60,124 nt of DNA from an uncultured Opitutales bacterium (GTDB lineage: Bacteria; Verrucomicrobiota; Verrucomicrobiia; Opitutales; Intestinicryptomonadaceae). This document shows, piece by piece, positions 425 to 55,158 of this stretch; within the stretch, counting starts at the first letter, position 1, and the number at the start of each line of letters is the position of its first letter. The stretch is from assembly GCA_944389195.1 (NCBI GenBank), contig CALXLM010000042.1:1-60124 (forward strand), in the 5' to 3' direction. The position numbers were made by a program, and so were the translations under genes. The notes beneath the pieces were generated by a model, which was not told the origin of the DNA, ran no database searches, and was given only the letters and a program-made list of their open reading frames with translations.

Positions 425-2341
425 ATGAACATAAGATTTTCATGCAAATATTTGTTTTTCGCATTGGCCTCCGCACTGCTATGTGCCGCAACCGCGGGAA
501 ATATGCCCGAACAAAAGGAAAGATTCTTCGCTTACAGGTCTTTCTGGCCGGAATTCGGGGCGATGAAAAGCTTTTCCGAAAACGGGGTGAACACAATCAC
601 CATAATGCCGTCGAACACGACAAATTCGCTCGGAGAGCCGTACTGCAAATATCCGGTTTTCTGGAGGGGTGAGGGAAAATACGACTGGAAGTCGTTCGAC
701 AGGCAATTCGACGGAGTCATATCGGCCAACCCGAACGCGAGAATCGTCTGCATTGTTGACCTTAACTCTCCGCCGTGGCTCATGCGCAAGATGTCGTTTG
801 GGCACACATTCGACTCCGACAGCTTTTCGATGCTTTCGAATTCCGTGTCGTGCCGCTTCTGGAAAAAGGCTACCGAACGATTTCTTATCGACTATCTCGA
901 ACACACCGAAAAAAAATACGGCGGCAAAATTGCCGCATACATGCTGGCGTGCGGCCACACCGACGAATGGCTTGACTACACGCTCGGAATAGCAAGCCCC
1001 TGCAAAATATCGGCATGGCGGGAATGGCTCAAGCGGAATAAAAAGCCCCAATGCAACATTCCACCATACAGCATGCTGTGCAATGCCTCGTTTGAGAACA
1101 CTTTGAGGGATCCCTCCAAAGAGTCGGCATCGATAGATTTTATCAGGTTTTCAAACGAAATTGTGGCTGACGCCATGATTCGGTTTGCAGAAATTGCCAG
1201 GGAAAAAATATCGAAAGACAAACAGCTGGGGGCGTTCTTCGGGTATGTGCACCGTTTTGCCCTCGACGGCCATTCCGACTACGAACGCGTATTCGCCAAC
1301 CCAGCATACGACTTTTTCGTAAGCCCGGGGACATACGGAACACGCGCCATGGGCGAAGGCAGCGGATTTATGGCTCCAAACGGAACCAGAACCAGATTAG
1401 GCAAAGGCTGGTTCCACGAAATAGACCACCGCACGCACACCTTCAACCACCAATTGTCGGAATATGTGAGAATAGTAAACGTGGCCAATTGGAAAAACCA
1501 GAAGGAGGACGACGCCGGATTAAAAAGGGAATTCAGCCTCGCCACAATAAATCACTCCTCTCTTTGGTGCTTCGACATGTGGGGAAACGTTTTTTCAACG
1601 CCCGAAACGCTTTCCACCGTGAGGCGTGCGCGGCAAATATGGGGCAAATATAAAAACGACAATTCGCCGACCGCCGCAGAAATTGCGATATTTGCCGATA
1701 TGGAAAGCGGCCTCCTTGTAAACCAAAATGTAAAGGGTCCCACAAACCACTTAAAGCCGGTATGGTACAACTTTATAAAAACCGGCGCCCCCGTAGAAAT
1801 ATTTTCCTTCGGCGACATCGGAAAGGCGGATCTTTCAAAATATAAGGTTATCGCCATTCCCCAAACGTTTCTCGTCACGCCGGAGCGCCGCACCCTGCTC
1901 AAAAAATTCGTTCTTTGCGGTAATAAAACCGTAATAACAACCTACGCCCCCGCAATCTGCGACGGCAAAAACCTCGACGTTTCGCGGGTGAAGGAGTTCT
2001 GCGGATTCGAATACGGGACAAAGGGCGTCAACAAAAAGCAAATGGACGGATGGAAAAGCGTATATTTCCACAACGCATATGACGCTACAACCGAAGAACT
2101 TAGAAAAATAGCGGAAGAAGCAGGGGTGCATTTTTACGTTGACGAAAACGTACCCGTGTTCGCAAACGAAAAGCTGCTGTGCGTGCATGTGAAGGACGGC
2201 GGTAAAAAAACCGTGCGCCTCAAGAAAAAACACGCAAAAATAACGGAGCTTTTCAGCGGGAAAACCGTCGCGGAAAATGCAGACAGCTTTGAATACGATT
2301 TCGACTCTCCAGATACGGCCCTGTTCGAACTATCCGAATAG
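425..2341 (+). CDS. Secreted glycoside hydrolase, clan-A (GH42-like) TIM barrel
   Basis: 638 residues with an N-terminal signal peptide (about residues 1-25). The body reads as a (beta/alpha)8 barrel of the GH42/clan-A type: an FAYRSFWPEF start, IVCIVDLNSPPW on an early strand, an acid/base candidate Glu181 in ACGHTDEWLDY and a nucleophile candidate Glu332 in WFHEIDHRTH. Residues of about 420-560 resemble a beta-galactosidase trimerisation-like Rossmann domain, followed by a small beta domain. It is a close full-length paralogue of the protein encoded at 32072, which has the same motifs. Probably exported to the periplasm or cell surface to hydrolyse a glycan. The substrate is unknown and the GH family assignment is by motif only. 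Confidence 0.7.
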   Translation: MNIRFSCKYLFFALASALLCAATAGNMPEQKERFFAYRSFWPEFGAMKSFSENGVNTITIMPSNTTNSLGEPYCKYPVFWRGEGKYDWKSFDRQFDGVISANPNARIVCIVDLNSPPWLMRKMSFGHTFDSDSFSMLSNSVSCRFWKKATERFLIDYLEHTEKKYGGKIAAYMLACGHTDEWLDYTLGIASPCKISAWREWLKRNKKPQCNIPPYSMLCNASFENTLRDPSKESASIDFIRFSNEIVADAMIRFAEIAREKISKDKQLGAFFGYVHRFALDGHSDYERVFANPAYDFFVSPGTYGTRAMGEGSGFMAPNGTRTRLGKGWFHEIDHRTHTFNHQLSEYVRIVNVANWKNQKEDDAGLKREFSLATINHSSLWCFDMWGNVFSTPETLSTVRRARQIWGKYKNDNSPTAAEIAIFADMESGLLVNQNVKGPTNHLKPVWYNFIKTGAPVEIFSFGDIGKADLSKYKVIAIPQTFLVTPERRTLLKKFVLCGNKTVITTYAPAICDGKNLDVSRVKEFCGFEYGTKGVNKKQMDGWKSVYFHNAYDATTEELRKIAEEAGVHFYVDENVPVFANEKLLCVHVKDGGKKTVRLKKKHAKITELFSGKTVAENADSFEYDFDSPDTALFELSE

Positions 2342-6161: not shown

Positions 6162-6932
6162 TCAAACCGTTTCATACGGAGAGCTTGATTGGGCAAACGG
6201 AGAAACTATTTCTATGCGAGAACGCATCTCGCCTATGCCGCTTAGCAGCTCCGATATATGTTCGGCGCTGTTGCATTCGCGCGATATGTGCGCAAGATAT
6301 ATCTTTTCGACAATTTGCGGCGAAAGCCTGCTGATAATCGATATTGCGTCAGCATTCGACAAATGGCCGTGCGAACTTTTTATGCGCATTTTCAGGCGGT
6401 ATGGCCGGGCGGACGCCTCGAGCATTTTCGGGCAATAGTTGCTCTCCAAAACAAGTATTTGCGCCCCCATGGCCATGTCTTGAACAAGAGCGGTAGGTTT
6501 TCCGAGGTCGGTCATCCATACGAGGCATTTTTCCCCAATCTGGAAACGGTATCCCACCGAATCGCTCGTGTCGTGGGGAACGGGGAAAGCGCAAACGCAA
6601 ATTCCCATAAAATCGAATGGGCGGCCGTTTTCAAAAATGTTCCATTTTAGTTTTTTTGAATCGGGGTATGCATAGCATATAGATTCTGCAGTAAGCCTGT
6701 TTGCAAAGATTTTCGCATTTGTCTTTGCAAAATATTTAAGCGACCTGCAATGGTCCACATGTTCGTGAGTAATAAACAGAGCGTCTATGTCTTCGAGAAG
6801 CAGGCCGCGCGAAGCCAGATAATCCCTTATTTTTCTGATGCCCACTCCGGCGTCCACGAGCACGCGCACGCCGTCGTTTTCGATAAGCGCGCAATTTCCC
6901 GAACTCGACGTTTCTATAATTTGAAAAAACAT
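6162..6932 (-). CDS. MBL-fold metallo-hydrolase, YycJ/WalJ-like
   Basis: 256 residues, the usual length of YycJ-type hydrolases. The N-terminus has the family-typical SSSGNC, followed by the metal-binding THEHVDH (His56, His58, Asp60, His61), a PVPHD histidine near 120, WMTDLG and a late AHISREC histidine. These ligands hold two metals for phosphodiester or nucleic-acid hydrolysis. Relatives are linked to DNA repair or mismatch processing and to cell-wall signalling, but the role here is inferred. It starts one base after the stop of the GH32-like gene, so the two are probably cotranscribed despite unrelated functions. Confidence 0.75.
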   Translation of the reverse strand: MFFQIIETSSSGNCALIENDGVRVLVDAGVGIRKIRDYLASRGLLLEDIDALFITHEHVDHCRSLKYFAKTNAKIFANRLTAESICYAYPDSKKLKWNIFENGRPFDFMGICVCAFPVPHDTSDSVGYRFQIGEKCLVWMTDLGKPTALVQDMAMGAQILVLESNYCPKMLEASARPYRLKMRIKSSHGHLSNADAISIISRLSPQIVEKIYLAHISRECNSAEHISELLSGIGEMRSRIEIVSPFAQSSSPYETV

Positions 6933-6933
6933 C

Positions 6934-8694
6934 TCACTTTTTCTTCTTGGGCGAGTTTACAGACTCTATAATTTCGCGTGCGGCCTTGGCGCGCTGTTCC
7001 ATAGTAGTCGGCAGAATGGGTATGCGAGTGACTTTTTCTATGAATATTTCTCCGTTGCAACCGATTTTTATATATTGCTCCGGATTTATATAGGAATCGC
7101 CCATAAAAAGAACAGCCGAACCGTCGAGAAAGAAAGTTTCAACCGAATATGTATCGACAAACATCATCACGCTTGTAAAACCGTCCGGACGCGGATCGGT
7201 AGCCTTTTGTATATGTTTGTAATCCTCTATTCTTGTGACCTCGTAAATGTTTGAAGTTTTCGAATAGCCGAATTTTGCGACCCCCGCGCGCAAAGAAAAG
7301 CCGACCAATTCGCGCGTATCGAATGTAAACACCACGGCAAACTTGTTTCCCACCGCGTTCGGAAGCATAAACACGTTCGAGCGGAACTGCATAGTCGGGA
7401 TGCCAAGCGCGTCAAGGGGATCGCCCATGTGATCGACGACCTCAACTGGAAGCGACGCCCTCAATCTAAATCCCCTTTTCGTATCGGCGAGGCGTATCTC
7501 CCACGGAATGCTCATGCACTGCGAAAACGACTGCCCCACTGTTCGCATCAAATCGCCCGGCTGCTCTATCCATGCAGAAACGAGGCATCTTCCCGATGTT
7601 GCATTCTGCCAAAATTGGGCTGATTTTGCGTCGCCGTAAAAGAGGCGGGCGGGTTCTGGAAAACTTGAGGCAAATTTTTTCCCGTCGAAATCCCCCACAA
7701 AGTAGCGGCCGTCCCCGCTCCAAAGGACATATTTAAAATTGGCGTCTGAACCCGACACGGGCATTTTTCTGAACGACGGCGAGGGAAAATCGGCGTCGAC
7801 GGCGCAAGCGAGTTTCCACGACTTTAAATCAGGAGACGAATAAAAGTTAACCCTCTGCTTCCCGCCTACATTTTCGCATTTCAGGAGGAACCAAAGCTTA
7901 AAATCCTCGATATATGTTAAAGTCGGGCTTCCTTTCGATTTTCCTCCGACCCCCGAAAGCTTTGACAATGCCGCGCCGGGACCGGCGTTGAGCCATGTAG
8001 AGCCGTCGGAATTCTCCACCACAAGAAGCGTCCCGGCGCCGGAGTCGAAAAAACCGCTTCTGTTTCCCCTATCGAAATAGGCGCTGCCGCCGACCGGATA
8101 AACTACGGAATCTCCCGAAAATTTAGGAGCCGACACGTTGGGTTCGTAGGTCCAATTAATGAGGTCTTCGCTTGCGGCGCGCGCAAGATAATACGGAGGC
8201 CTGGGAGTCATCGCATACGGATTGTATAGGAAATATGCGTTCCATTTTCCTTTTTCATAAACAAGCCCGCATATTTCGCCCATAAAACCGTCTTTAGGTG
8301 TCAAATGGTACGCCGGACGTCCCCTGTCGGCGGAGTAGTTTCTAATGCCCATGCTGTCCGACTGCATCAGATGCGGGGCCGATCCGAGATTTTGATATGT
8401 CATCACCAACTCCTGCCCCTTGTATTTCGAAACGTCGACCGGCGCATACCACGCCGCTTTAGAACCCGATAAAAGCACGGAGGCGAAAAACACCGTTTTG
8501 CCGTCCTTGTCGGAAATCCTCACCTTGTTATACCTCTCGTTTCCGTCCATCGGAAGCAGGAGCCAATTTCCGTCTATTTTTACCTTCATTTCGGACGTGC
8601 CGTCGAAGGGCGGAGGCGAGTCAACTTGCAGCTGCGCCAAAACGGGCGGGAGAGCAAATATTAAAATGCACGCTGTAAAAAGGCTTAATTTCAT
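6934..8694 (-). CDS. Secreted GH32-fold protein with altered catalytic motifs
   Basis: 586 residues: signal peptide (1-20), a DUF4980-like beta domain (about 36-105) as found in Bacteroidota levanases, a five-bladed GH32 propeller (about 125-400) and a C-terminal beta-sandwich (about 400-570). HLTPKDGFMGEICGLVY (130-146) aligns base for base with the GH32 block that normally reads WxNDPNG, so the nucleophile Asp is Glu140 and the Asn is Gly. The RDP motif is GSP (255-257), and the EC acid/base motif is missing around 303-311. The fold is convincing, but fructan hydrolysis is doubtful. It may be a binding protein or have changed chemistry. It sits between a flavoprotein and an MBL-fold gene, all on the minus strand. 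Confidence 0.65.
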   Translation of the reverse strand: MKLSLFTACILIFALPPVLAQLQVDSPPPFDGTSEMKVKIDGNWLLLPMDGNERYNKVRISDKDGKTVFFASVLLSGSKAAWYAPVDVSKYKGQELVMTYQNLGSAPHLMQSDSMGIRNYSADRGRPAYHLTPKDGFMGEICGLVYEKGKWNAYFLYNPYAMTPRPPYYLARAASEDLINWTYEPNVSAPKFSGDSVVYPVGGSAYFDRGNRSGFFDSGAGTLLVVENSDGSTWLNAGPGAALSKLSGVGGKSKGSPTLTYIEDFKLWFLLKCENVGGKQRVNFYSSPDLKSWKLACAVDADFPSPSFRKMPVSGSDANFKYVLWSGDGRYFVGDFDGKKFASSFPEPARLFYGDAKSAQFWQNATSGRCLVSAWIEQPGDLMRTVGQSFSQCMSIPWEIRLADTKRGFRLRASLPVEVVDHMGDPLDALGIPTMQFRSNVFMLPNAVGNKFAVVFTFDTRELVGFSLRAGVAKFGYSKTSNIYEVTRIEDYKHIQKATDPRPDGFTSVMMFVDTYSVETFFLDGSAVLFMGDSYINPEQYIKIGCNGEIFIEKVTRIPILPTTMEQRAKAAREIIESVNSPKKKK

Positions 8695-8823
8695 GTTTCT
8701 TTGTAATCCGAAACGATAAGACAGTTCTAAAAAAAAGTAAAAAAAATTCCGACTTACAAAAGCCGCATTTTTATTTCAAACAATTGCTCTGGATTCTTGC
8801 GCAATGCACAATTCTCCGAAGAT

Positions 8824-10803
8824 TTACGCATAAGCCCTAATTTCGCTGACCACAACTTTGGGATGCCCGTTTGTAGAGATTATGTCGGCGCGCAAAGATT
8901 TTATCGAAACGGGGTCGAATTTTACCCGCACAAGGCGCTGGGCGTTGCCGCGCATTTGGCAAAGTTTAATCTCCTTTCCGTCTTCAAGTTCGGCCACCAC
9001 GTCAAAATCGCGCACAAGCTCTTTTTGGGGCCCCCTATGCATGTGTTTCAGAAGATAATCGGAATGCGTCTGCGACAGTTCCGTGCAACCCCCGTAAAAA
9101 GTGAACTGAACCGACGAAACTTTTACCGGAGACTTCCAAGACAGTTTTATCCACGGCTTGGAGCCGGCCGAAGCAATCCACCTGTTTTTAACTCCTTTGG
9201 GAGAATCTATAACCACTCCGCTTATGACATTTGCCGGAGCGCTTCCGTCCAAGCTTTCCGATGCCGCGACATCGGCCGATCTGGCAAGGTCGAGCGGATC
9301 TTCATTTTTTATTCCGAGAATTGTCTGGTCGTCCCGCAGCAGTATCTGCTGGAGGCTTTTAATCTTTGCGGGGGCCGCCCGAAGCTGCGACGGCGACAAG
9401 CCTTCGTCTATGCACAACGCGGCGGCAGTTCCGACAGCCTGTCCGACTGCCGCGCATGTGGACATCACGCGCGTGGACGTAAACGCTACGTGACTGCAGC
9501 TTATATTGCGCCCCGCCATCATCAAATTTTTAACGTCTTTCGAGTAGAGCGACGAAAGCGCTATGTTGTAAAACGGAACATCAGCGAACTGTCTGCACGG
9601 GCGCCTGTCGGAATCGTAAAATCCTTTGGCCGGGTGATCGTCCATCGACCAGCCTCCCACTGCTACGGCATCGTCAAAATCCTTCCATTTGCCCATGATA
9701 TCGTGCTGGGTCATTATGCGCTCCCCGACGATGCGGTATGTGTCGCGGCGCCCCGGAACCATCGATATGGAATCTATGGCCCGATTCGCGGCGTCCGGAT
9801 ATTTGCCGCTGTTTTTTATGTAATCCCAAACGCCCATTACAATCGACAGCAGCTCAAAGCGCAGCATTTCATTGTCGCGTATGGCGTCCCCGTCTCCGCC
9901 GAGTTCTATCCACCAATATCCGTATGCGAGCCCGTCGCCCTTGACGCTTCTGAACTTCATCTGTTCGGGCGTTATTTTTTTCGCCCAAACCGGAGGCTTA
10001 AAAGGCATGGGTTTGTCGTAAATTTTCGACGTGAACATGATTGTAGAACCCTGGCGGGTTCCGACGGTGTCGTAATCTGCAAAGGGTTCGCCGAATTTTT
10101 TGGAGCCGTCGCGCCCCGACATTACTTCGGCGCCCGCCTCCATTGCAAGCCTGCTGTCGCCGGTGGCATCCACGAATATACCGGCTTTTATTTCATAGAT
10201 ATGGCGCGTCGTGTCGGAGCGCGCAAACGCCTTGGAAATTTTGTCCGCCTCCATTTCGACCGAACATACCGAAGTATCGAGAAGGAGCGTTATATTCTTT
10301 TCGCTTACGCATTTGTCGTAAAGTAGAAAATCCCACATTTCCCACGAAAGCTGTGGGTTGTTCGCCGCATTTTCGAGTTTCAGCTCCTCGATAATGCCTC
10401 CCTCCCTCCAGCCGGTGCGCGGAGATTTTACGCCGAGGGGATGCATTTTTATTTCCGAACTTGAATTTCCGCCGAGCCTCGACCTATCCTGAACAAGAAC
10501 CACCTTTTTCCCGTGCCGCGCCGCCGCCATAGCTGCGCAAATTCCGGAAAGCCCCCCCCCTGCAACAAGTACGTCGCAGTCGAGGCTGATTTTTTTCATT
10601 AACTTTTCGTTTTCTGCGCAAGGAACTGCTGCCGGCGCGCTCAAAGCCGCAAGCCTTTCCGAACGTTCGTCTGTGGGTTTTAATGCATATGCTGGTTTGG
10701 CCGCGCTTACAATCACGCTATATCCGACCGCCGAAGCCAGTGAAGAAGATAAAAATCCCCTTCTGCTCAAAGTTGATACCCTTTTTTCCATGAATATTTC
10801 CAT
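8824..10803 (-). CDS. Tat-exported FAD-dependent oxidoreductase with discoidin-like C-terminus
   Basis: About 659 residues from ATG at 10803. An in-frame TTG at 10830 and a second ATG at 10791 are alternatives; an AAGGAAAG stretch lies upstream of 10803. The N-terminus has a twin-arginine-like SRRGFLSSS motif and a hydrophobic stretch. DVLVAGGGLSGICAAMAAA is the dinucleotide-binding fold, followed by RLGGNSSSE, and the core matches the FAD_oxidored (PF12831) family. The last 150 residues resemble an F5/8 type C (discoidin) carbohydrate-binding domain (WIKLSWKSPVKVSSVQFTF). It probably oxidises a sugar or sugar derivative in the periplasm. The substrate is unknown. The GH32-like gene lies 129 bases downstream. 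Confidence 0.7.
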   Translation of the reverse strand: MEIFMEKRVSTLSRRGFLSSSLASAVGYSVIVSAAKPAYALKPTDERSERLAALSAPAAVPCAENEKLMKKISLDCDVLVAGGGLSGICAAMAAARHGKKVVLVQDRSRLGGNSSSEIKMHPLGVKSPRTGWREGGIIEELKLENAANNPQLSWEMWDFLLYDKCVSEKNITLLLDTSVCSVEMEADKISKAFARSDTTRHIYEIKAGIFVDATGDSRLAMEAGAEVMSGRDGSKKFGEPFADYDTVGTRQGSTIMFTSKIYDKPMPFKPPVWAKKITPEQMKFRSVKGDGLAYGYWWIELGGDGDAIRDNEMLRFELLSIVMGVWDYIKNSGKYPDAANRAIDSISMVPGRRDTYRIVGERIMTQHDIMGKWKDFDDAVAVGGWSMDDHPAKGFYDSDRRPCRQFADVPFYNIALSSLYSKDVKNLMMAGRNISCSHVAFTSTRVMSTCAAVGQAVGTAAALCIDEGLSPSQLRAAPAKIKSLQQILLRDDQTILGIKNEDPLDLARSADVAASESLDGSAPANVISGVVIDSPKGVKNRWIASAGSKPWIKLSWKSPVKVSSVQFTFYGGCTELSQTHSDYLLKHMHRGPQKELVRDFDVVAELEDGKEIKLCQMRGNAQRLVRVKFDPVSIKSLRADIISTNGHPKVVVSEIRAYA

Positions 10804-10892
10804 ATAAAATAAGGCTTCTTTCCTTGTCAATTATATTTCCGGCGCGCCGGTTTTGACTTGAAAAATCGCTCGGTTTTGAAAGCATCGTGTCA

Positions 10893-32071: not shown

Positions 32072-34033
32072 ATGAAAAGATTTCTGCCGATAGTGTCCGT
32101 CGTTTTTGCGTTGTCTCTTCCCGCAAACGCATCTTCAGACAAAATTTTCTCATACCGCTCGTTTTGGCCGGAATTTAACGCCATGGCTGATTTTAAAAAA
32201 GCCGGCGTAAACGCGGTAGCCATACTGCCCTCCAACTCCGACAATTCTCTCGGCGAACCCTACGGAAAATATCCCGCCGTATGGGCATGGCACGACACAT
32301 ACGACTGGGAAAGCCTGGACAGGCAGTTCGACGGCGTTCTGAAAGCAAATCCCGACGCCGAAATAATCTGCATTGTCGACTTAAACTCCCCCCGCTGGTT
32401 TGCCCGACATCTGGCAATGGTTTCGCGCAGCATGGGCATGGAGGCCGACAGTTTTACACAGCTGTCCAACTGCCTCACAAACCCCCTATGGGTTAATCCC
32501 ACAAAGAAATTCGCCGCCGAATTTTTCAACAGGGTAGAAAAAAAATATGGGAAACATATTAAGGGATATTTGATAGCGTGCGGGCAAACCGACGAATGGA
32601 TGGACTATTCAAGCGGCATTGCCAGCGCCAATAAGAGCGACGCCTGGCGCAAATGGCTCGCTAAAAAAGGATATCCGCAAACTCCGGTTCCCGGGATTGA
32701 CCGCCTTGAAAAAGCGTCGTTCGAGGGGCGGCTCCGCGATCCGGCAAAAGAGGGAGACGTCATAAGATACGCGGAATTTACAAGCGATATCGTATCCGAC
32801 GCCATTATCGACTTTGCAAAATTCACCCGCGAACGCGTTTCAAAAGACAGGCTTATCGGATCGTTTTACGGGTATGTAATGGAACTTGCCGGAAAGCGGT
32901 TCGTATGGTGCGGACACCTGGCGTATGAAAAGGTTTTCAATTCGCCCCATCTCGATTTTTTTGCCAGTCCCGCCGCATACGGCAACAGGGCCCCCGGCGA
33001 GGGAAGCGGTTTCATGTGCGCATACGAAACGCTTAGACGGCTCGATAAAAACTGGCTTCACGAAATAGACCTAAGAACGCATACATACAACTCAAAGCTA
33101 TCCAAATACATAAGCATTTCCACAAGCGGGGCGCTTGCCATGACGAAAAACCAAACGGAAACAAGCGCCGTTTTAAAACGCGAGTTCTGCCTGGCGACAA
33201 TTAAAGGGACTTCGCTATGGTGCTTCGACATGTGGGGGGGTGTTTTTGCCACTTCCGAAACCATGGAGATTGTTAAAAGGGCGAGGCAAATATGGGGGGA
33301 ATACGCCGGCAAAAACCTCCGCCAAAACTCAGAAATTGCGATCGTCGTCGATCCCAGAAGCGCGCTTTACATTTCCGCAAGCATATCGCACGAACCGTAC
33401 AATATGCTCAGAAAGCGCCTTAATTTGATTTCCGCCCCCTTCGACGTAATATCCTTCGGCGACATTCCGCATATCGACATATCGAAATATAAGACTCTAA
33501 TCATTCCCGCCCTTTTCGAACTTACAGACAGCAGCCGCAAAATTCTCGAAAAATACGCCTTTTGCGGCGGCCGCACGGTATTATTTGCGTACGCCCCCGC
33601 AATAAGCGACGGCAAAACCCTTGACACCGCGCGCATAAAAAAACTTACCGGTTTTGAATACGGCGCAAAGGGAATAAACAAAAAACGCATGGACGGTTGG
33701 AACTGCATCTACATACACGACTACAATGACATTACAACCGACGTCCTAAAAAGCGTTGCCCGCGACTCCGGCGTCCACATATACCTCGACGAAAACGTTC
33801 CCGTATATTCGAACGAAAAACTTACCGCCGTCCACGCGGGCGGAATGGGGTGCGAAAGCGGAAACGGCGCACCGGAAAGCGCATCACTAACGCAAAAGCT
33901 AAAAATAAAACTTCCGCAAAAATTTTCAAAAATAACCGAACTGTTTTCGAACAGGGTTGTGGCGGAAAACGCCGAAGAATTCGAATACGAATTCTCCATT
34001 CCCGACACCGCGCTGTTTTTAACCGAAAAATAA
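32072..34033 (+). CDS. Secreted glycoside hydrolase, paralogue of the enzyme at 425
   Basis: 653 residues with a signal peptide (1-20). It is clearly homologous along its whole length to the protein encoded at 425: both have YRSFWPEF, DRQFDGV, CIVDLNSP and ARQIWG. Acid/base candidate Glu175 lies in ACGQTDEWMDY and nucleophile candidate Glu331 in WLHEIDLRTHTYN. The C-terminal half again contains the trimerisation-like domain (FAYAPAISDG). An insertion of about 20 residues near 590-615 distinguishes it. Probably a periplasmic or surface clan-A glycosidase of unknown specificity. It is followed 86 bases later by a larger glycosidase gene on the same strand. Confidence 0.7.
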   Translation: MKRFLPIVSVVFALSLPANASSDKIFSYRSFWPEFNAMADFKKAGVNAVAILPSNSDNSLGEPYGKYPAVWAWHDTYDWESLDRQFDGVLKANPDAEIICIVDLNSPRWFARHLAMVSRSMGMEADSFTQLSNCLTNPLWVNPTKKFAAEFFNRVEKKYGKHIKGYLIACGQTDEWMDYSSGIASANKSDAWRKWLAKKGYPQTPVPGIDRLEKASFEGRLRDPAKEGDVIRYAEFTSDIVSDAIIDFAKFTRERVSKDRLIGSFYGYVMELAGKRFVWCGHLAYEKVFNSPHLDFFASPAAYGNRAPGEGSGFMCAYETLRRLDKNWLHEIDLRTHTYNSKLSKYISISTSGALAMTKNQTETSAVLKREFCLATIKGTSLWCFDMWGGVFATSETMEIVKRARQIWGEYAGKNLRQNSEIAIVVDPRSALYISASISHEPYNMLRKRLNLISAPFDVISFGDIPHIDISKYKTLIIPALFELTDSSRKILEKYAFCGGRTVLFAYAPAISDGKTLDTARIKKLTGFEYGAKGINKKRMDGWNCIYIHDYNDITTDVLKSVARDSGVHIYLDENVPVYSNEKLTAVHAGGMGCESGNGAPESASLTQKLKIKLPQKFSKITELFSNRVVAENAEEFEYEFSIPDTALFLTEK

Positions 34034-34119: not shown

Positions 34120-36813
34120 ATGCAAACTAAATCGTTTTCATCGGCCATATTTTTATTTTTGACGGCGCTTTCTCCGGCAGTTTTAGCGCAAAACGACTAT
34201 ACAGTCGAACCGCGCGGAGGGGTTCCGTTTATGCATGTAAACGGCAAGCCTGTCCGCGGAAAGATGTTTTACGGCAACGTTCCGGGAATGAAGTACGATT
34301 CCATAGATGAGAATTGGAAGCGCGTCGCGCTAAAATTCACTGCAAAAAGGGACTGCGACGCATGCCTGCAGATGAATTTCGGCTCCACGATAAGGGATAT
34401 TGAAATCAGCGAAATTGTCCTAACAGACGACGAGACCGGCGAAAAGCTCCCAATATTCGACTTCTCCGACGCCTCCGCCTCGCAATTGAAATCGAACTGG
34501 ACGCAAAAATCGCTCGAAGCCTGGCGCGATATCGCCGAAACGGTGTCAGACACCGCTCCGGACCCTAAAAAATATCCCGTTCCACCGTTTACCGCCGAAA
34601 ATAAAAACGGCGTTCTGCACATACGCAAGGACTTTGTAAGCAAAGAGAAAATTCAATCTAAAATCCACGACATCGAACGCCTCAATTTTATAATAAACTC
34701 AATAAAGCTCAAAGAGGGCAAAAGCTACTCGCTGTCGATGAAGCTGCGTTCCGACACTGAAGGCCGTTTTGAAGTCTCTGTATTCTACGAAGGCCCGCGA
34801 GAGCTTGCCGCAACAAACACCGGAGAAACTTTTATGACGCAGGAAAAATACGCGGCATCTGTGGGTGTCGATTTCGTCACGTTCGGCGTTCCCGCTTTTT
34901 GGGAGGACGACGAAACCTGCAAAAAGCTTGTGGATTCGCGCTTTCAACCGGTGATAGCGGCAAATCCCAACGCAAAAATCATAGTGCGGCTCGGCCTTGA
35001 ACCCCCGAATTGGTGGCTCGACAGCCATAAAGACGACCTTATGTGTTCGCCCGACGGCGTTCCGATAGAAAGAATGCACGTGCGTTTCCCTTCGCCGTCG
35101 TCGGAAAACTACAGGCGGGACGCTTTAAATGCGATGCGCAAATTCATAAAATATGCGGAGGAAAAATATCCGGACAACATCGCCGGATACCATCCGTCTG
35201 GCGGCAATTCGAGCGAGTGGTTCTACGGCGGAACTTACGAAAAAGGGCACCACGGATACGACAAGGCGACTTTGGCGGCATGGCGCAAATGGCTCGCTAA
35301 AAAATACGTAACCGACGCCGGGCTGCAAAAGGCGTGGAACCGCCCGAATGTTAGGATTGCCGAAGCTGCCGTACCCTCAGTTGAGGAGCGTTTTGTTTCC
35401 GACGGCGCAATTCTCGACCCGCAAACCCGCATGCCGTCCATAGACTTCAACATATTTCTGCAGGACGAAATGAGCGACATCGTTTTGTTGGCCGCCGAAA
35501 CCATACGCAAAACCGCACCGCGAAAACGCCTTTCGGTCATTTTTTACGGCTACGGTTTCGGATTCTCAAGTGTTCCGAAAGGTCCGGCATATTCCGGCCA
35601 CTACGCTTTCGGAAAACTTTTGAAATCAGACGCAATAGACATATTTACAGCCCCGATAGCCTACCACGACAGAAATTTCGGCGGCATAAAATGCTGTGTA
35701 AGCCCCGCGGAATCGGCGTCGCTGCACGGCAAGATTTGGCTCGACGAAGACGACAACCGCACTTGGCTTGCTCCGAAATCGGGTTCGCCGCCGTACGTGC
35801 TCGACTTCTCGCAAAAAAGCCGCGCCGAATCCACGCTTGTCATGCGCAGAAACATGGCGCACCAAAGCATAAAAAACCTCGGGTCCTGGTGGATGGATCT
35901 ATTCGGTTGCGGCTGGTTTCTCGACAGGCAACTCTGGGGCGTATTCGATGAATTTAAGGAGGTCGAAAGCGACCTTCGAAACAATCCGTCGCCCTATTCC
36001 CCCGAAACCGCCGTTTCTTACGATGAAATCTCCATGTGCCATGTTTCAGGAAAGCCCCACTCGCAGCTTACTACCGCCAATTGCATAATGAACCTGCCCA
36101 AATATCTTGCCACGATAGGAACCCCCCACGGGCAGTACCTTCTCGAGGATATTTTGGAGGGGCGCGCCCGCCCGAAACTTCATTATATATCGGGCGCGTA
36201 CGCCCTCGACAAGAAGCAGAGAAAACAAATGAGAAATGCCGCCGAAAACATGGCGTGCGTATATCTGTGGAATGCGGGATACGCGGACACGGACAACAGA
36301 AACCTGTCGCTCGACGCCATAGAAGAGGCGACCGGATTCAAAGTTGAATACGCCGGAAAGACAACCGCGCTGGCGATTCCCACCAAAGAAGGCAAAAGGG
36401 AAGGCATCGGAAATTTCGGATTCAATCTCGAAGTTTCCCCGCTATTCTCGCCCGTGCCCGAAGAGGGCGACAAGGTAATTGCCACATATCCCAACGGAAA
36501 GCCGGCAATGGTCGTGCGCACGGGCGGCAAATTCCCCCAAATATTCATAGGCGTCACAAAACTCTCTCCTGAAGTTTGCAAATACATAGCAAAAATTTGC
36601 GGAATCCACAGCTATGTGGACAACGAAGCCGTGGCAGTCGCAAACGGAAGCTACCTTTCAATCAACGCCACAAAAGACGGCAGGCACACAATATCGCTCA
36701 AAGACGAAGCCGACGTTTTCGACGTTTTGGAAAACAAACCTATCGGACGTTTTAAAACGAGGGAGTTCAACCTTAAAAAGGGCGACGTAAAGCTGTTTAA
36801 GCTCTCAAAATAG
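34120..36813 (+). CDS. Large secreted glycoside hydrolase, GH42-like
   Basis: 897 residues. A signal peptide (1-24) is followed by an N-terminal beta-rich region (about 25-230) that may bind carbohydrate. The catalytic barrel (about 240-600) has LGLEPPNWWL, acid/base candidate Glu366 in GNSSEWFYGG, and nucleophile candidate Glu543 in IWLDEDDNRTW. A trimerisation-like domain (about 630-800) and a small beta domain close the chain. The last part (IHSYVDNEAVAVAN) resembles the C-termini of the two shorter paralogues. It probably acts on the same glycan as its neighbour at 32072. Substrate unknown. A bidirectional terminator follows. Confidence 0.7.
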   Translation: MQTKSFSSAIFLFLTALSPAVLAQNDYTVEPRGGVPFMHVNGKPVRGKMFYGNVPGMKYDSIDENWKRVALKFTAKRDCDACLQMNFGSTIRDIEISEIVLTDDETGEKLPIFDFSDASASQLKSNWTQKSLEAWRDIAETVSDTAPDPKKYPVPPFTAENKNGVLHIRKDFVSKEKIQSKIHDIERLNFIINSIKLKEGKSYSLSMKLRSDTEGRFEVSVFYEGPRELAATNTGETFMTQEKYAASVGVDFVTFGVPAFWEDDETCKKLVDSRFQPVIAANPNAKIIVRLGLEPPNWWLDSHKDDLMCSPDGVPIERMHVRFPSPSSENYRRDALNAMRKFIKYAEEKYPDNIAGYHPSGGNSSEWFYGGTYEKGHHGYDKATLAAWRKWLAKKYVTDAGLQKAWNRPNVRIAEAAVPSVEERFVSDGAILDPQTRMPSIDFNIFLQDEMSDIVLLAAETIRKTAPRKRLSVIFYGYGFGFSSVPKGPAYSGHYAFGKLLKSDAIDIFTAPIAYHDRNFGGIKCCVSPAESASLHGKIWLDEDDNRTWLAPKSGSPPYVLDFSQKSRAESTLVMRRNMAHQSIKNLGSWWMDLFGCGWFLDRQLWGVFDEFKEVESDLRNNPSPYSPETAVSYDEISMCHVSGKPHSQLTTANCIMNLPKYLATIGTPHGQYLLEDILEGRARPKLHYISGAYALDKKQRKQMRNAAENMACVYLWNAGYADTDNRNLSLDAIEEATGFKVEYAGKTTALAIPTKEGKREGIGNFGFNLEVSPLFSPVPEEGDKVIATYPNGKPAMVVRTGGKFPQIFIGVTKLSPEVCKYIAKICGIHSYVDNEAVAVANGSYLSINATKDGRHTISLKDEADVFDVLENKPIGRFKTREFNLKKGDVKLFKLSK

Positions 36814-51783: not shown

Positions 51784-54700
51784 CTACAACTTTACGATTT
51801 CAAACATGGGCGTCGCTCCGTGTTTGAGTTTGTAATTGTCGATTTTAAGCCTCATGACTCCGTCCTTAAACTCGAACGGTATCTTTTCCCGGCGCTCGCC
51901 GTTAAGCGCCACGGGATAAACCTCGTATTTGGAGTTCGGGTCGAGCCGTATTTCAGCCTCTATGGAACCTTTCAGCATGACGACAGGAGGCCTTCCCCAG
52001 AAAGTGGAGGCCACGTCGTCTTCCGAAAGCTTCATGTCGGTATTGCCCTCGCGCGTCACAAAGACGAACATCAAGCGCGAACTGTCTGAAATCTTCTTGC
52101 CGTCGAGCGAACATACGCCAACAGTGGAGGGAACATTGCCGGAAATGACCTTCAAAGCCCCAAGCCTGGTTTCCTCCGGCTTGTTCATGGCAATTATTTC
52201 GGAGCGCGGCGTCACAACCTTCAACGTAATCTTCTTTGTATCCATCGTAATCTGATTCGTATCGGATTGGAATATGCCCTTCTTCACGTCGGTCTTATTG
52301 TCGGGAGACAGTATTCCCTTCGTGCGCATCTGCTCGACCATCTTTTCGACAAAATCTTCAGTGACCTTGCCGTCTTCCTTAACGCCGTGGAACCATGCTT
52401 CGGCTACGATTTCAGAGCTTCCCACCGGGGTCATCACCATGTCGGCAGGCTTTACTTTAACCTTTTTGACAGCGTCGGGCACCCTGCCCTCGTACGACGT
52501 TCCAAAACCGGTAAGAAGCATACACTGCGTCTGCACTGAACTAAATGCGTAAACCGAACGGTTATTGTTGGTTAGAAAATTATCCGAAACTTTTATGTCA
52601 ACGCGGTGGCGGGCGGGCTCCACGTCGCCGCGTATGAACATCGCCGACGAAAACAGTTCGGCAACCTGCGCAACAGGCGAAGGGAATACGGCAAACGCGC
52701 CCACTCTCCCCGACCATTTCCGGGTATGGGGAATCGCATCTGAATGAATCGTGAGCCCGGAAAAGTTCTGGAAAGCCGAATACGGCGCAAACATCGCCGG
52801 GAACTGATAACGCGACTTGTTCCAATAACAGTGGTTGTACTCCGTCACAAAAAACGGACGGTCGTTAAGCTTCATCGAAGTTATTCCGCGCCAATAGCCG
52901 GCAAGACCCTTAATCGCGTCTCCCTGGGGGCACAGCGCATCGGACATGTTAAAGCTCGACGGATGCGAATAGTACGTATTTCCTATAACGTAATCTGTCG
53001 TGCGCGAACGCACCGCATTCCCGTAAACCATAGGCCCGAGATTGTTTTGAACCTTCAGCCCCTTGTATCCCGTGCCTTCCACCACCTTTTCGGCAAAGTC
53101 GACAAAATCGGCAAGATGATCCCAGCAGCAGCGGGTCCAATCCCCGTTGCCCCTCACTATGCACGGAACCTCTTCGAATGTCTTATAACCGGGATTTTTA
53201 CCCATAAAGCCCTCTTCCCACGCCTTGTTGAGGGCGTTAATGTCGCCTTTATAACGCTTTTGCAGCCATTTATGCCATTTCGACATTACAAGCTCCTTGG
53301 TTTCGGGCAATATCTTGTCGTTCGGGTCAAACTTCGTGCTTTCGTCCATTCTGCTAAAGCAAATGGCAAGCTCGTTGTAGTATTCCGCGCAAACGAAGAC
53401 CGGATCGTCCTTCCACCTCAACCCGGTGTACGGGTTCATATGGTTTAAGGTGTACTCCGCATTCGCCTTCCAATGGTTGCGGACGTTTTCGTCTCCGAAT
53501 ACGGCGCGAAGCTTGACGTCGTCGCGAATATAGAAGTGATAGCCCTCAAGCCCCATTCTGTACCACACGAGCGTCAGATGCAAATATACGCCGTTTTTCT
53601 TAAGCTCATATATGAGCCTGTCAGCCGTGTCGTAAAGAATTTCGCGCTCTTCGGCAGGCATATGCTCGCGCAGAATCTCGAACGATATTCTGGCGAAATT
53701 ATATCCTGTCACCTTGAACGATTCCGCATAGCGCCTAATCTCGGCCACCCTTTGCTCAGGCGGAAGCTTCGCAAAATAGGAAAGGCAATAGTTTGAAAAA
53801 CCCTTGAAACGCGCGTCTTTTTCGGGCGTCTTTTCAAAAGCCAGCGTCCCGCGGTCGCTTATTATCACGCGCCCGTACGCGCCCGTGGGCTTGTTGTCAA
53901 AGAAATGCGAATGGTCCAAAGCCGAGCCCTTCTTTACGTAAATGTCGTCCGGAATGTCGGCCTTCACCCATTCGTCAGGATTAAAGGGCTTTGTCTCTAC
54001 CATCGGAACGCGCTCGTCGTAGATTGTCGCCCCCAAAAGCACGAAGGCGTCGCTAAGCATAGACTCGATTTCTATCGACTTTATAGCCCTCTCCGCCGGC
54101 AATTCAAAACGCGACAGGAAAACTCCTCCAAGCTTTTTCTCGGGAATCACGTGGTAAACCGGCCTTACATTTCTGAGATAAACGCGCGGATCGGTAAAAA
54201 ACCAAGTGTCCTTTCGGCGCTGCATAATGTATGTCTTCTTTTCTCCGCCAAGCGATGTGAGCGTTATTTTCATAATGTCGGTGTCGCCAGAACTGCTGTA
54301 AAAAGAGGTGTGCAAAAGATACAGATAATTGCCCGTCACAAATTTGTCTATCTTGATCTTCTTGAGGCCGTCCTGTTTGTTTTTAGATGCAAACAAGATC
54401 CCCCCTTTGCCGCCGTTCTTGTCTGGATCTATAAGGTTAAATTTAACGTCTCCGAAAACCGTGCGTTTTTTGTCGAGCCCCCCGAGATTGTAATTGCACT
54501 TCCACATCGAGAAATCGTCCAGCTTGAGATTTGCGTATTTAGAGATGTCAAGCTGCACGTTGCCGCTTTTGATATCAAAAAGCCCCACCGGCTTCGTCTT
54601 AAACGAAATCTCGTATGTCTGCCCTTTTTTTACGTTAAACACATGCGATGCGTATGTGGCGCTCCAAGCCCTCAAATACTTGTTTTTCTTGCCGTCGGAC

Positions 54701-55158
54701 GCAGTTTCCTGTTCGATGAAAGTGGGAAACGTCTTTGAGAGCCTCCATTTATTGAAGCCGTCTTCGAAATCCCCGTTGGGAACAAGTTTCCCGTTTATTT
54801 TAATGTCGTCGTAGCAGACCGCCAGCCTCAATCTCTTGCCGTTCTTGTACTTGTGAATGCCGGAAACGCTCAATGTCGCTTCGCCGTCGTAATTGGCCTT
54901 GAATTTAAAAGATGCCGTCTCCCAACCCAGATTTTTATTCCTATAAAGGAAACGCACAACCGGGCACATCACTCCGTCGCTTTTGAATTCCCCGACCGAC
55001 AGCTTACCGCCGGTGGAGCCCTGGGCTTCAAACGTCTCCCCAGGCGATGACGATACAATTACATAAGCCTCCGCCTCGAACGGAGACGAAGCTATTGTCT
55101 GGGCGGTCAATACCGAACAAATAAAAACCCCAAGTAGCGCAAACAATATTTTCTTCAT
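51784..55158 (-). CDS. Very large secreted glycoside hydrolase, clan-A type
   Basis: 1124 residues. A signal peptide (1-20) is followed by an N-terminal 430 residues of beta-sandwich character that contain a CBM-like stretch (LVPNGDFEDGFNKW). The barrel runs from about 450 to 800, with acid/base candidate Glu596 (CAEYYNEL) and nucleophile candidate Glu773 (PFFVTEYNHCYW). This Tyr-Asn-Glu pattern resembles GH5/GH42-like clan A rather than the motifs in the other three glycosidases here. The C-terminal 300 residues are beta-rich. It is probably surface or periplasmic, acting on a plant or host glycan. The family is unassigned. Confidence 0.7.
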   Translation of the reverse strand: MKKILFALLGVFICSVLTAQTIASSPFEAEAYVIVSSSPGETFEAQGSTGGKLSVGEFKSDGVMCPVVRFLYRNKNLGWETASFKFKANYDGEATLSVSGIHKYKNGKRLRLAVCYDDIKINGKLVPNGDFEDGFNKWRLSKTFPTFIEQETASDGKKNKYLRAWSATYASHVFNVKKGQTYEISFKTKPVGLFDIKSGNVQLDISKYANLKLDDFSMWKCNYNLGGLDKKRTVFGDVKFNLIDPDKNGGKGGILFASKNKQDGLKKIKIDKFVTGNYLYLLHTSFYSSSGDTDIMKITLTSLGGEKKTYIMQRRKDTWFFTDPRVYLRNVRPVYHVIPEKKLGGVFLSRFELPAERAIKSIEIESMLSDAFVLLGATIYDERVPMVETKPFNPDEWVKADIPDDIYVKKGSALDHSHFFDNKPTGAYGRVIISDRGTLAFEKTPEKDARFKGFSNYCLSYFAKLPPEQRVAEIRRYAESFKVTGYNFARISFEILREHMPAEEREILYDTADRLIYELKKNGVYLHLTLVWYRMGLEGYHFYIRDDVKLRAVFGDENVRNHWKANAEYTLNHMNPYTGLRWKDDPVFVCAEYYNELAICFSRMDESTKFDPNDKILPETKELVMSKWHKWLQKRYKGDINALNKAWEEGFMGKNPGYKTFEEVPCIVRGNGDWTRCCWDHLADFVDFAEKVVEGTGYKGLKVQNNLGPMVYGNAVRSRTTDYVIGNTYYSHPSSFNMSDALCPQGDAIKGLAGYWRGITSMKLNDRPFFVTEYNHCYWNKSRYQFPAMFAPYSAFQNFSGLTIHSDAIPHTRKWSGRVGAFAVFPSPVAQVAELFSSAMFIRGDVEPARHRVDIKVSDNFLTNNNRSVYAFSSVQTQCMLLTGFGTSYEGRVPDAVKKVKVKPADMVMTPVGSSEIVAEAWFHGVKEDGKVTEDFVEKMVEQMRTKGILSPDNKTDVKKGIFQSDTNQITMDTKKITLKVVTPRSEIIAMNKPEETRLGALKVISGNVPSTVGVCSLDGKKISDSSRLMFVFVTREGNTDMKLSEDDVASTFWGRPPVVMLKGSIEAEIRLDPNSKYEVYPVALNGERREKIPFEFKDGVMRLKIDNYKLKHGATPMFEIVKL

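Follow-up and report, generated by a model that had tools for sequence, protein, structure and literature searches.

The gene analysed here lies on the minus strand of the window, by which we mean the whole stretch of 60,124 nucleotides from an uncultured Opitutales bacterium; it begins with an ATG at position 8694 and comprises 586 codons followed by a stop codon, and a single base separates this stop from the start of a gene for a metallo-beta-lactamase-fold protein. The features of the locus are collected in Table 1. A 509-codon frame with a TTG start at 8797-10326 (+), antisense to the FAD oxidoreductase gene, is most likely a spurious shadow frame. Elsewhere in the window, two large proteins encoded at 34120-36813 (+) and 425-2341 (+) give weak beta-galactosidase (GH42) signals (31.6 bits; trimerisation domain only, below the cut-off) and may be divergent glycosidases, and two further open frames, at 32072-34033 (+) with 653 codons and at 51784-55158 (-) with 1124 codons, have no Pfam match at E 0.001.

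Table 1. Features at the locus, with positions in the window and the evidence for each.
Feature	Position	Strand	Length	Evidence
Putative GH32-derived pseudoenzyme gene	6934..8694	-	586 aa	ORF, Pfam GH32N, AlphaFold2 model
Probable signal peptide, residues 1-21	8632..8694	-		Lys near start, hydrophobic core, VLA-Q site
N-terminal beta domain, DUF4980-like, residues 33-112	8359..8598	-		Pfam score below cut-off, and model
Five-bladed propeller, residues 124-413	7456..8325	-		GH32N match 130-406 and structural match to GH32 enzymes
Former nucleophile motif, WMNDPNG to FMGEICG, residues 137-143	8266..8286	-		Gap-free alignment
Former RDP motif, now GSP, residues 255-257	7924..7932	-		Alignment; Arg position ambiguous
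Former acid/base motif, EC to Pro-Ser, residues 304-305	7780..7785	-		Alignment
C-terminal beta-sandwich, residues 435-560	7015..7392	-		Model strands; SVE motif (517-519) kept
Metallo-beta-lactamase-fold gene	6162..6932	-		Pfam Lactamase_B_2, E 4.5e-20
Upstream FAD-dependent oxidoreductase gene (PF12831 and DUF7402)	8824..10830	-		Pfam

The Pfam profile GH32N (PF00251) matches residues 130-406 of the protein with E 3e-20 and 73.4 bits, well above its cut-off of 22.1. The AlphaFold2 model, built from a 13-row alignment, has a pLDDT of 87.3, and its top structural matches are GH32 enzymes: as an example, comparison with the T. maritima beta-fructosidase 1w2t gives Z 36.5 and rmsd 3.1 over 391 aligned residues, and the levanase BT1760 follows at Z 30.9. 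The GH32 enzymes compared (T. maritima invertase, 1uyp/1w2t; Arthrobacter levan fructotransferase, 4fff; Aspergillus endo-inulinase, 3sc7) have the same propeller and sandwich fold (Z 36), and the likeness extends to the GH32N match and to the SVE motif of the sandwich. With both the propeller-sandwich body and PF00251 found, the protein belongs to GH32 by descent and, on the predicted structure, by fold. The same domain order occurs in a Bacteroides DUF4980-GH32 protein (a BLAST match on a B. finegoldii plasmid), which is 25% identical over 88% of the length.

In the model the signal-peptide region is a helix (residues 2-22). The original prediction had also described the DUF4980-like N-terminal domain and the C-terminal sandwich as intact, which is overstated as regards the Pfam assignment. 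DUF4980 (PF16352) scores 20 bits, under the Pfam cut-off of 28.9, but residues 33-112 form a confident beta domain (pLDDT 91 when modelled alone), for which comparison of the isolated domain with PDB folds gave no significant match. Likewise, the sandwich is seen in the structural model up to residue 562, but the Pfam GH32 C-terminal domain (PF08244) has no match anywhere in the window's genome.

What sets this protein apart from the GH32 beta-fructosidases is the loss of the Asp nucleophile, the RDP Asp and the acid/base Glu, in place of which we find Glu140, Ser256 and Pro304. Pfam, the model and the alignment together bear out the prediction of a GH32 fold in which all three catalytic motifs are altered. 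The block of residues 130-146, predicted to align without a gap, does so over the slightly longer range 126-146, and in it the conserved N139, D140, P141 and N142 of the WMNDPNG-type enzymes have become Gly, Glu, Ile and Cys. The predicted change of RDP to G255-S256-P257 also holds for its decisive residue: a short insertion leaves either K252 or G255 as the counterpart of the Arg, but in both placements the Asp is Ser. The EC motif, said to be absent near 303-311, is indeed missing, and its site aligns to P304-S305. The surrounding −1 pocket is changed as well. Besides the Asn, the enzymes' pocket Gln (FxQ), Trp (WGH) and Ser (FSG) are lacking, these being Leu156, Leu170 and Gly202, and just 1 of the 17 pocket and motif positions defined below is retained. 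In exo-inulinase, each of the single changes W79L, R181K and C239A abolishes activity (PMC7545266); the window protein has Leu170 at the Trp79 site, and letters not found in the enzymes at the R181 and C239 sites.

A search for homologues with the same substitutions, as had been suggested, proved productive. Sixteen GH32-type proteins could be read from 13 readable genomes of the genus, 11 with a changed triad (one in each of 11 species) and 5 intact (G001, G006, G008b, G013b and G002b); a fourteenth genome, G010, in which even the RNase E/G-like neighbour protein used as a control had no match, was excluded from these counts. The intact proteins are similar in sequence and have the N-terminal domain, but their motifs are complete. 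In the maximum-likelihood tree the eleven changed proteins form one clade with support of 100/100, or 100/99 after removal of the motif columns. The pattern is not due to chance, as three separate motifs are altered in eleven proteins of a single clade, and on the same tree we rejected the idea that the triad was lost repeatedly and independently. One member, G007, stands in between, with EC and the Gln still present but Asn both at the nucleophile and at the RDP Asp. Two others, G005 (L049:1454-3727) and G011 (L050:1484-3703), have an extended N-terminus and, within the propeller, a long insert of low complexity; Pfam GH32N barely matches one of them (24.3 bits) and does not match the other.

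In the rest of the order, 40 GH32 frames could be read; the nucleophile Asp is present in 40/40, an RDP-type Asp in about 38, and the EC-motif residue in about 39 when D is allowed for E. Since the changed proteins are one clade and the frames elsewhere nearly all keep the motifs, we infer a single ancestral inactivation, limited to this genus within the sample of the order. A search of GTDB contigs with the window protein alone gave no match, and a 3-row alignment recovered two relatives, labelled Verrucomicrobiota and Opitutales. One genome of the same order, G040, gave 14 matches to the window protein, its GH32-type genes being greatly expanded.

The degree to which the pocket has been erased can be appreciated from 61 reference columns, each conserved among 15 intact proteins to 85% or more. 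Seventeen of these were assigned to the pocket and motifs; this set was chosen after the conservation table had been viewed, and 12 of its columns are published GH32 motif residues. In the changed clade the enzyme letter is retained in 17 of 187 cells at the pocket columns versus 390 of 473 at the other conserved columns; per protein, the pocket columns match the enzyme in 15 to 17 cases out of 17 among the intact proteins of the genus and in 0 to 5 among the changed ones. Mean pairwise identity at the same columns is 94% for the intact proteins and 16% for the changed clade, in which the propeller averages 33%; no other part of the changed proteins is so poorly conserved. Structural residues are fixed in all eleven changed proteins, and the sandwich residues D514 and E519 are kept in 11/11. 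A pocket that served a shared new reaction or held a shared sugar should be conserved, and the opposite is observed, which argues against both. Among the three closest species, however, conservation of the pocket (43%) is close to that of the remainder (45-56%) and position 140 is Glu or Asp, so that a pocket function specific to that subclade is conceivable.

These observations bear directly on the two roles originally proposed, the first being a non-hydrolytic fructan-binding protein in which the old pocket would act as a lectin site for fructans or fructosides. Its fold is retained, the protein is predicted to be secreted, and crystals of single catalytic mutants of GH32 enzymes do show bound substrate (BT1760 E221A is one such case; PMC6560043). 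Here, however, the sugar-holding residues went along with the catalytic ones (N139G, Q156L, W170L, S202G), no intact GH32 accompanies the protein in the window's genome, and the pocket is where the clade diverges most. Thus the non-hydrolytic and maintained part of the proposal stands, but fructan binding in the original pocket is disfavoured, since the Asn, Gln, Trp, Ser and Arg that hold the −1 fructose are gone and the pocket varies fastest of all; we regard it as unlikely. Fructan binding by another surface is conceivable.

The second proposal, that of an enzyme whose new chemistry would rely on different residues of the same cavity, such as Glu140 and a second acid, is less probable still. 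Glu or Asp does occur at position 140 in the three closest species, but in 6 of the 8 remaining members this position is A, S, N or G. The search for an alternative acid pair in the pocket found no new acidic pair common to the clade, and no propeller acid conserved throughout the clade is new relative to the intact enzymes, with the exception of position 328 (D/E/N/Q). The latter is Asp, Glu or Asn in 10/11 members, but its place between two strands and its DG or NG context are those of a predicted turn.

A role in regulating or stabilising an active GH32 enzyme has a precedent in plants, where it has been proposed for the defective invertase Nin88 of tobacco (PMC3713406), and three species of the genus hold a changed and an intact protein together. 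However, no intact GH32 was detected in 8 of the 11 changed species, the window's included, and no other clear GH32 was found in the window's genome (96% complete); therefore, in most hosts the protein would not be the helper of an active GH32. Furthermore, the plant proteins keep the triad: defective invertases are reported never to be affected there (PMC3713406), and the plant type, with an intact triad and altered substrate-stabilising residues, is not what we find in the window protein, whose triad is changed. We consider such a regulatory role about as improbable as new chemistry.

Between the window protein and its nearest relative, from G008 (58% identity), dN is 0.34 and dS is 1.95, the latter near saturation; for the propeller alone dN is 0.31 and dS is beyond estimation. 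Propeller and sandwich are under equal constraint, and dN/dS approaches 1 only in the signal peptide (23 codons). The GH32-type gene directly precedes the metallo-beta-lactamase-fold gene in 10 of the 11 changed species (the window, G002, G003, G004, G005, G007, G008, G009, G011 and G013) and also in G001, whose intact gene thus occupies the same position as that of the window. In G012, the eleventh changed species, both genes lie at contig ends, consistent with the same pair (the genomes appear to be draft assemblies), and in G006 the downstream gene is present with no GH32 ahead of it. By position, the metallo-beta-lactamase-fold gene is the constant neighbour. We discarded a role connected with the FAD oxidoreductase, as that gene adjoins in two species only, the window's and its closest relative. 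In G014 (L114), from a related genus, the metallo-beta-lactamase-fold gene directly follows TPR, TolQ-like and TolR-like genes, so that the GH32-type gene ahead of it in most genomes of the genus represents an insertion or rearrangement relative to G014.

The protein is maintained by purifying selection, as follows from dN/dS, from the homologues in ten other species and from the fixed synteny; the earlier claim of maintenance is therefore upheld, but the open frame on which it was based is by itself a weak argument. A decaying pseudogene or near-neutral remnant, kept by co-transcription with the metallo-beta-lactamase-fold gene, would account for the one-base junction, for the long branches of the changed clade and for this being the fastest of three neighbouring genes (58% identity versus 72% and 80%), but with frames open in all eleven members, amino-acid identity far above expectation at saturated dS and structural residues fixed in 11/11, it is the least probable of the alternatives.

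With enzyme-family homology, missing catalytic residues and selection found together, the window protein is, as judged from sequence, a pseudoenzyme: it is very probably dead as a fructosidase and nevertheless selected. The likely history is that of a secreted GH32-derived pseudoenzyme that lost its activity a single time in the genus and was retained for a non-catalytic role. Starting from an ancestral GH32 beta-fructosidase, the triad and the surrounding −1 pocket would have been lost and with them the fructosidase activity. A duplication probably preceded the inactivation, given that intact paralogues branch off immediately outside the clade; the gene tree, set against the weakly resolved tree of the neighbour gene, suggests an old duplication followed by differential loss. 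The product would then act in the periplasm or at the cell surface, where its rigid propeller-sandwich body would scaffold or bind by way of surfaces away from the former pocket. That the role is one of binding or scaffolding by a non-pocket surface, rather than some other alternative, we propose tentatively, at slightly less than an even chance. Similarly tentative is the broader picture of a genus-wide family that underwent a single erasure of triad and sugar pocket and whose body was then taken over for a secreted role unrelated to carbohydrates, examples of which might be envelope assembly or a protein-binding scaffold.

Pseudoenzymes and inactive GH32 proteins are already known, and the nearest known dead GH32 proteins are the plant defective invertases. 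These (tobacco Nin88 among them) are likewise GH32-derived, secreted, conserved, without normal activity and thought to be non-catalytic; unlike them, the bacterial clade has lost both triad and pocket, mostly without an active partner in the host. In the open-access literature that was searched we found no bacterial GH32 clade lacking triad and pocket together, and no description of a GH32 fold recruited to a secreted non-carbohydrate role. As the Pfam GH32 cut-off is exceeded by 50 bits, automatic CAZyme counts would credit such bacteria with a use of fructan that the sequence does not support, and the pseudoenzyme would be listed as a fructan degrader. If the proposed history is true, the genus offers a passage from glycosidase to non-enzyme with surviving intact paralogues and an intact syntenic copy for comparison, and would be a good system for asking why a dead glycosidase is retained.
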